A DNA stretch of 64,000 bases, taken from assembly GCA_903900155.1 (NCBI GenBank), contig CAIUMD010000062.1, forward strand, positions 124,001-188,000, read 5' to 3'. This document shows, in pieces, positions 22,887-32,726 of this stretch. The position numbers were made by a program, and so were the translations under genes. Origin of the DNA: an uncultured Caulobacterales bacterium (lineage in GTDB: Bacteria > Pseudomonadota > Alphaproteobacteria > Caulobacterales > Caulobacteraceae). The first letter of the stretch is position 1. Every line of letters begins with the position of its first letter. The notes under the pieces were generated by a model. It ran no database searches, had not been told where the DNA came from, and saw only the letters and a list, made by a program, of their open reading frames with translations.

Positions 22887-22987
22887 TGTCATCCCGGCCG
22901 CAGCGAAGCGGAGAGCCGGGACCGCAACAAACGCCGGCGCTTCCGGCGGTCCCGGCTCGGCGCGCTACGCGCTTGGCCGGGATGACA
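22887..22987. repeat. palindromic intergenic repeat, family C (complete, arms adjacent)
   Basis: TGTCATCCCGGCCGCAGCGAAGCGGAGAGCCGGGACCGC ... GCGGTCCCGGCTCGGCGCGCTACGCGCTTGGCCGGGATGACA. Confidence 0.85.
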
Positions 22988-28516: not shown

Positions 28517-28527
28517 GCAGCGCGCGC

Positions 28528-28917
28528 CTACCCTTCTTTGTCATCCCGGCCGAAGCATAGCGTAGAGCCGGGACCGCCAAGCCCCGGAACGGCGGACGGT
28601 TCGTACCAAGGATACTCAGCCTCGCCCATGAGCGCCGGATAGAGGTCAGCCCAATCGGGATTGCGCGCCTCAACCAATTCGAACTTCCATTCGCGTCGCC
28701 AGCGTTTGATCAGTTTCTCGCGATGGATCGCGCCTTCGATGTGCGTGTGATCTTCGAACCAGACGAGGCGCGTGCAGCCGTAGCGGTTGGTAAAGCCCGG
28801 CAGCAAATGTTCACGGTGCTGTTGGGCGCGATAGGGCAGGTTCGAAGTGACGCCGACGTAGAGAACTCCGCGCCGCGTGTTCGTCATCAGATAGGCGGCG
28901 TAAGCGTGCTCGCGCAT
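28528..28917 (-). CDS. GIY-YIG nuclease family protein (URI domain)
   Basis: AYLMTNTRRGVLYVGVTSNLPYRAQQHREHLLPGFTNRYGCTRLVWFEDHTHIEGAIHREKLIKRWRREWKFELVEARNPDWADL; C-terminal GGPGSTLCFGRDDKEG encoded by a repeat arm. Confidence 0.93.
   Translation of the reverse strand: MREHAYAAYLMTNTRRGVLYVGVTSNLPYRAQQHREHLLPGFTNRYGCTRLVWFEDHTHIEGAIHREKLIKRWRREWKFELVEARNPDWADLYPALMGEAEYPWYEPSAVPGLGGPGSTLCFGRDDKEG
28539..28578. repeat. family C repeat, left arm
   Basis: TGTCATCCCGGCCGAAGCATAGCGTAGAGCCGGGACCGCC; near-identical to arm at 22887. Confidence 0.85.
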
Positions 28918-28963
28918 GGCGTGAACATATCGCGAACATTTTTAGTTGGCGATAGTGCTTCCT

Positions 28964-29002
28964 GCGGTCCCGGGTCTTCGCTCCGCTTCGCCCGGGATGA
29001 CA
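28964..29002. repeat. family C repeat, right (inverted) arm
   Basis: GCGGTCCCGGGTCTTCGCTCCGCTTCGCCCGGGATGACA. Confidence 0.85.
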
Positions 29003-29027
29003 GGTTTTGATCGGCGGTTCGCGCCGT

Positions 29028-32112: not shown

Positions 32113-32168
32113 CTGGACTCTTTCAGCGATCGATGTAGTGTGTTCTTGAATTGTTCCGGATTGGGCGA

Positions 32169-32438
32169 ATGACCAAAGCGGCTTCTCTCAGCATAGAGCT
32201 TGATGACGACTTGGATCGGCGGCTTTCAGAGGTCGCCGACGAGATGGAACAGCCCAGGGCGGCGGTTGTCGAGCAGGCCCTGCGCAATTTCCTCGAACTC
32301 CGTGATTGGCAGGACAGGGCTATAGACGAAGGCCTGAAAGCCGCCGAGGAGGGGCGCGTCTTCGAGCACGACGAAGTCGCCAGGTGGGTGGAGTCGTGGG
32401 GGCAGCCGAACGAGCTACCCAGGCCTGGCCGCAAATAG
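32169..32438 (+). CDS. ribbon-helix-helix (CopG/ParD-like) antitoxin
   Basis: MTKAASLSIELDDDLDRRLSEVADEMEQPRAAVVEQALRNFLEL RHH; adjacent to ParE-like toxin. Confidence 0.85.
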   Translation: MTKAASLSIELDDDLDRRLSEVADEMEQPRAAVVEQALRNFLELRDWQDRAIDEGLKAAEEGRVFEHDEVARWVESWGQPNELPRPGRK

Positions 32439-32441
32439 CCT

Positions 32442-32726
32442 GTGCGGGTTCGCTGGACCGATCCTGCGCTAGACGACCTTGAGTACGCCCAAGCGTCGAT
32501 CGAGCAGGATCGGCCGATGGCCGCTCTGGACCAAGTCAGCAAAATCCTACGGGCCTCGAGAGGGCTGAGCGACTTCCCGAATCTGGGGCGGCCGGGCCGT
32601 CGCCGCGGAACGCGTGAGCTTGTTGTCCACGGCGGCCCTTTCATCGTCGCCTACAAGGTCAGGGGCGATGTGATCGAAATCCTTCGCGTATTCCACGGTT
32701 CTCGCCGCTGGCCGGACAGTCTCTAG
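32442..32726 (+). CDS. RelE/ParE family toxin
   Basis: VRWTDPALDDLEYAQASIEQDRP...NLGRPGRRRGTRELVVHGGPFIVAYKVRGDVIEILRVFHGSRRWP; GTG start. Confidence 0.9.
   Translation: MRVRWTDPALDDLEYAQASIEQDRPMAALDQVSKILRASRGLSDFPNLGRPGRRRGTRELVVHGGPFIVAYKVRGDVIEILRVFHGSRRWPDSL

Follow-up and report, generated by a model that had tools for sequence, protein, structure and literature searches.

A GIY-YIG nuclease gene between inverted CGTC-class REP arms: a REP-bounded mobile unit in an uncultured Caulobacterales bacterium

The nuclease gene and its arms

The window, the whole stretch of 64,000 nucleotides analysed here, comes from an uncultured Caulobacterales bacterium. Between a YitT-like gene and a glycosyltransferase-9 (GT9) gene, it contains a small nuclease gene enclosed by two inverted copies of a repeat. 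The features of this site, and of a related repeat pair elsewhere in the window, are as follows:

22887-22987, no strand: gene-less head-to-head dimer (REPIN-like) of the arm family of 28539-29002, folding over its whole length
28517-29027, no strand: intergenic stretch from the YitT-like gene to the GT9 gene, containing the unit; 0-28 nt in 15 related species
28528-28917, minus strand: GIY-YIG nuclease gene, 129 aa, subfamily A, with conserved Y9, Y20, R30, H34 and E67
28538-28579, minus strand: codons for about residues 113-126, the C-terminal part encoded through the left arm and predicted to be disordered
28539-28577, plus strand: left arm, a TGTC-tagged (CGTC-class) REP with the tag at its outer end and the internal hairpin TCCCGGC/GCCGGGA
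28630-28902, minus strand: GIY-YIG domain, about residues 6-96, confidently folded
28923-28937, minus strand: candidate LexA (SOS) box, GTTC-N7-GTTC, just upstream of the GIY-YIG start codon
28964-29002, minus strand: right arm, the left-arm REP inverted, tag at its outer end

A preliminary description of this DNA had reported two inverted 39-bp arms around a GIY-YIG open reading frame, and both were borne out: the 39-nt arms are 87% (34/39) complementary and are spaced 386 nt apart with the gene inside, and the ORF at 28528-28917 matched PF01541 over residues 8-78 (E 1.8e-10). The complete gene-less element that it placed at 22887-22987 was also as described, a head-to-head pair of the same repeat.

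Y9, Y20, R30 and H34 are invariant and E67 is at least 90% conserved; all five are kept in the window protein, which meets the criterion of the GIY-YIG nuclease family (catalytic Tyr, Tyr, Arg and Glu). AlphaFold2 predicted a confident domain at residues 6-96, with pLDDT above 90 across most of it, and a disordered tail at residues 109-129 that includes the arm-encoded part (pLDDT below 50 for 109-125 and 127-129). The left arm had been described as encoding the C-terminus of the nuclease. This read-through is real, but it does not appear to matter; a functional arm-encoded C-terminus was ruled out because the tail is predicted to be disordered and the arrangement is not general, the arms lying outside the GIY-YIG domain in most relatives. 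Judged from the predicted structure, the arm-encoded part looks incidental.

The nearest solved structures, both by sequence and by fold, were UPF0213 proteins (YhbQ; PDB 1zg2 and 1ywl), and the next structural neighbour was the branched-DNA nuclease Slx1, with weak Foldseek E-values. The YhbQ / UPF0213 proteins have the same domain as the window protein and are of similar size, but they belong to another subfamily, for which nesting in REPs is very rare (3/48 in the group outside subfamilies A and B). Searches for the case under study gave no match in PHROGs or NCBIfam, and no Rfam family at the gathering threshold.

Within the 4.94-Mb genome from which the window comes, probably that of a Caulobacter to judge by its relatives, the exact arm pattern TGTCATCCCGG-N10..26-CCGGGACC was found in 62 copies, compared with 0 in the reversed control, indicating that its occurrence is not due to chance. 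These 62 exact arms gave 23 pairs, all of them head-to-head with the tags outward. The gap was 22-27 nt in 22 of the 23 pairs; only the pair at 28539-29002 had a long gap, 390 nt by this pattern, and held a gene. The arm is built as TGTC-ATCCCGGC...GCCGGGAC-CGC, with the stem ATCCCGGC.../...GCCGGGA(C) and the tag at the outer end of the dimer. Three arm families in this genome had 62, 26 and 240 copies, the last count allowing two mismatches.

CGTC-tagged REPs have an unpaired tag, CGTC but also TGTC or CCTC, and a stem starting with AT; they occur mostly as head-to-head dimers and mostly in alphaproteobacteria, with C. crescentus listed as CGTC-positive in 2013, and they "apparently lack a dedicated transposase" (Di Nocera, De Gregorio and Rocco 2013, PMC3733652). 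The window arms met the criteria for this class, namely the tag, AT-initial stem, loop and short tail, and a high copy number with mainly head-to-head dimers. Three differences were found: the tail is CGC, whereas the usual tail is CCA (seen in sister arm types); the loop is longer than the usual 4-5 bp; and a GIY-YIG gene is nested between or beside the arms, whereas the 2013 study (PMC3733652) reports no gene association.

Association of GIY-YIG genes with inverted arms

Eight PF01541 genes were present in the genome, and all six other than UvrC (L006) and a divergent gene (L008) were in or beside palindromic repeats. Three of these were nested (L001, L004 and the window gene) and three were adjacent (L002, L003 and L007). 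The association was also analysed in eighty named loci from relatives, which had flanks of up to 10 kb and were picked regardless of repeats, and in a phylum sample of 200 genomes, in which the loci were the best-scoring matches and not a random selection. The subfamily boundaries are approximate, since the split rests on short motifs and a cut in HMM score. A permissive hairpin scan that required only the tag and a 7-bp stem gave a high background in GC-rich DNA; a stricter tag test was therefore used, together with a tag-free test in which inverted arms had to reach at least 20 nt and 85%.

By the tag-free test, genes of subfamily A were nested between inverted arms at 43 of the 73 named loci and at 20/29 phylum-sample loci, from nine taxonomic families, and those of subfamily B at 8/15. 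The corresponding values were 3/48 for GIY-YIG genes of neither subfamily, mostly YhbQ-like, 1/670 for other ORFs, and 0/28 for ParE toxin genes, which represent small accessory genes drawn from those 200 genomes (p 1e-8). These YhbQ-like, ParE and ORF controls excluded the possibility that GIY-YIG genes as a whole, or small accessory genes, tend to lie at repeats. Outward-tagged arms were present on both sides of 28 of 71 GIY-YIG genes, compared with 6 of 851 ORFs of the same loci (p 2e-28), and the density of tagged hairpins reached 59 per 10 kb within 150 bp of a GIY-YIG gene but was only 1-2 per 10 kb at distances over 600 bp. The enrichment of GIY-YIG genes inside or beside such arms, which had been suggested as a check, was thus found across hundreds of loci, and the outcome that would have refuted it, no statistical association, was rejected. 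Roughly a quarter of the subfamily-A genes had no detectable arms nearby, and some GIY-YIG genes had a REP element on one side only.

CGTC-class arms around nested GIY-YIG genes were also observed in two loci from genomes assigned outside the Proteobacteria, L108 (Omnitrophica) and L104 (Acidobacteriota), which suggests age or horizontal spread.

The arms were matched to the nucleases that they flank. Further copies of a flanking arm were found in the distant flank at 0.54 per 10 kb, compared with 0.056 for arms swapped from other loci. Arm similarity tracked nuclease protein similarity (Mantel r 0.42, 0/2000 permutations), and arm types clustered on the Caulobacter-type tree (24 changes compared with 36.5 when shuffled, 0/200), in which seven CCCAT-tail rows made up one branch (100/97) and the window type joined its sister (98/90). 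Across the 200 genomes, REP load and subfamily-A genes co-occurred, with an odds ratio of 9-13 at most cut-offs (p about 1e-7). The Mantel, tree-clustering and co-occurrence results carry no correction for species phylogeny. Sixteen of the 200 genomes (G037, G140, G156, G165 and others) had ten or more CGTC-REP pattern hits and no subfamily-A gene was found in them; this may be due to gene loss, incomplete assemblies or another mobiliser. Such genomes are to be expected if the genes are lost, but also if another enzyme does the work.

Repeats of this type invite comparison with the RAYT / REPIN (REPtron) systems, in which HUH/Y1 tyrosine transposases are found with GTAG REPs (PMC3116915, PMC2817692, PMC8266576). 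The likeness lies in a single gene flanked by inverted REPs, dispersed gene-less dimers, and a gene clade matched to its repeat type. However, the enzyme here is a GIY-YIG protein, of unrelated fold and chemistry, and the tag is TGTC, whereas that of RAYT REPs is GTAG. Because both tag and enzyme fail the RAYT definition, the GIY-YIG unit works like a REPIN/RAYT system and is not a member. No match to the Y1/RAYT-type transposase (PF01797) was found in the genome, which ruled out a RAYT as the mobiliser.

The second subfamily, B, has the motif 'KGWSRAKKEALI' and arms of the CCTGAGCTTGTCGAAGG kind. Its genes were observed in or beside CCTCATCCTGAGCTTGTCGAAGGACGAGG-type palindromes at L001, L002 and L004 in this genome and at L119, L151, L153, L158 and L167; this palindrome family has about 240 copies in the genome.

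Presence, absence and ends of the unit

Comparison of orthologous loci, also proposed in the preliminary description, showed that the unit was present at some and missing at others. At the window site, only 0-28 nt separate the YitT-like and GT9 genes in 15 other species of the genus, and the full unit was found only here and in the sister G238, in which the upstream gene is 94% identical and the GIY-YIG protein 84%. G227 (L261) had a lone arm of the same kind at this site. The window unit carries about 22-25 extra bp per side that are absent at the empty sites. Other, mostly unrelated palindromic elements were observed at the YitT-GT9 intergenic site in L246, L254-L257, L261 and L262, and this may be a favoured landing site.

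The ends of the unit were seen in g16, a genus of the same class. Copies within and between its genomes aligned from TTCGTCAT to ATGACGAA and ended exactly at the arm tags, and the flanks were unrelated in most pairs. The exceptions were L157 and L164, which have a short piece of an adjacent repeat in common, and L156 and L165, which are orthologous sites. The 512-bp copy in L164 was absent from orthologous sites with ~90% identical flanks, the exact junction being blurred by the surrounding repeat, and the 574-bp subfamily-B unit L001 was absent at its orthologous sites. By eye, no consistent target-site duplication was found in 31 tag-anchored junctions.

In L164, at about 1700-2500, the GIY-YIG unit was observed inside another dispersed palindromic repeat (CCCCCACTCCGTC...GACGGAGTGGGGG), which is present without the unit in L271 and L274.

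The criteria for a mobile element, presence or absence at orthologous sites and discrete ends, were therefore met. Given the empty sites in most related species and the multi-copy relatives that share only arm-gene-arm within unrelated flanks, the arm-gene-arm arrangement is a REP-bounded mobile unit, and the element at 28539-29002 is one of a widespread, evidently mobile kind. The layout of a cargo-carrying REPIN-like element, inferred earlier from this one locus, is now strongly supported by the association, by presence and absence at orthologous sites, and by copies ending exactly at the arms. We lean towards describing the 464-bp unit as a minimal mobile element, consisting of a REP arm, a GIY-YIG nuclease gene and an inverted REP arm, with CGTC-class arms and ~100-bp gene-less pairs as its non-autonomous (MITE/REPIN-like) relatives.

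Mobilisation by the nuclease and competing explanations

The best inference, made without enzymatic or transposition data, is that both this unit and the REP pairs lacking a gene are mobilised by the nuclease. Because GIY-YIG enzymes work by hydrolysis, without becoming covalently joined to DNA, the unit would have to move by another route than the HUH-type RAYTs use, and movement would depend on host repair or replication. Expression of the window locus may rise under SOS control through the candidate LexA box; the nuclease would recognise hairpin or cruciform forms of its cognate arms and cut at the arms or at a target, after which the unit would be copied by the repair or replication machinery of the host. 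Movement could be whole-unit transposition or homing into existing dimers, and the gene-less dimers would be non-autonomous derivatives of the arm-gene-arm unit. At the sites examined, most empty alleles were without any REP, which favours whole-unit transposition over homing.

Homing could also account for the layout without the nuclease having spread the arms. A free-standing GIY-YIG homing endonuclease would cut gene-less REP pairs near their centre and be copied in by recombination, the arms having spread otherwise. GIY-YIG is a classic homing-endonuclease domain, and the unit shares with the free-standing enzymes a GIY-YIG catalytic domain in a selfish, sporadic gene. The gene occupies the middle of a REP dimer, dimers are also the form in which the REP families are dispersed, and REP arms stand alone at some orthologous sites (L261, with arm-like hits in L273 and L282). 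However, no REP is present at most orthologous empty sites (0-28 nt at the window site), and at some loci the gene is flanked on both sides by complete dimers, which homing to a centre does not predict. The unit also differs from free-standing homing endonucleases in being REP-bounded, with matching gene-less dimers, and in that no intron or intein was seen and no fixed homing site is known. Homing remains possible, though rather doubtful.

Two REPs might instead have inserted around an unrelated small nuclease gene, or the gene might have been captured between repeats mobilised by another enzyme. The abundance and intergenic position of REPs would allow this, as would the one-sided REP element at some GIY-YIG genes, but hardly any other GIY-YIG genes, ParE genes or neighbouring ORFs are nested, the arms co-vary with the nuclease clade, the moving unit is arm-gene-arm, and the genome has no RAYT. 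Such a passenger role is already unlikely.

The LexA-type box GTTCGCGATATGTTC at 28923-28937 was found at the same position, with a changed spacer, in the sister G238. The Caulobacter SOS box consensus is GTTC-N7-GTTC (PMC9578287), and C. crescentus COG2827 proteins have been proposed as repair nucleases, with an SOS box at CC3518 (PMC1839093). SOS-like boxes were identified at 9 of 143 subfamily-A genes, the window gene and its sister included, compared with 10 of 799 control ORFs (p 8e-4), so SOS control would apply at most to a subset. That proposal, these boxes and the weakly scored structural kinship to branched-DNA nucleases such as Slx1 are compatible with a UvrC/Cho-like back-up repair enzyme of the host whose repeats are regulatory or incidental, but a housekeeping repair gene would be neither sporadic at orthologous sites nor repeatedly inserted in several copies, and the cognate arms would be left unexplained, making this explanation very improbable.

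Elsewhere in the window, a small ORF (32151-32438) that resembles an antitoxin gene in its position has a GTTC-N7-GTTC box (32142-32156) at its start and is followed by a ParE-family toxin gene (32442-32726), which suggests an SOS-linked toxin-antitoxin pair.

As the inferred mobiliser of its own unit, the GIY-YIG protein is a strong candidate for the enzyme, so far missing, by which a large class of bacterial repeats is spread. No earlier report of a GIY-YIG / REP link was found in the open-licence literature, subscription papers and preprints being outside the scope of the search. The wider proposal is of an unrecognised class of mobile element, in which the CGTC-tagged REPs of alphaproteobacteria and other bacteria arose through the action of a hydrolytic GIY-YIG nuclease on hairpin repeat ends, and subfamily B ('KGWSRAKKEALI') does likewise with CCTGAGCTTGTCGAAGG-type repeats; we regard the case for and against it as evenly balanced. 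How the CGTC-tagged REPs, a major class of repeats, are spread was left unanswered in 2013, and the finding of one small nuclease subfamily, matched to the repeats and inside the moving unit, makes their spread directly testable. If the proposal is true, the enzyme folds known to move bacterial DNA would gain a new member, and several abundant families of genomic hairpins would be explained, as would the poorly annotated "GIY-YIG nuclease family proteins".
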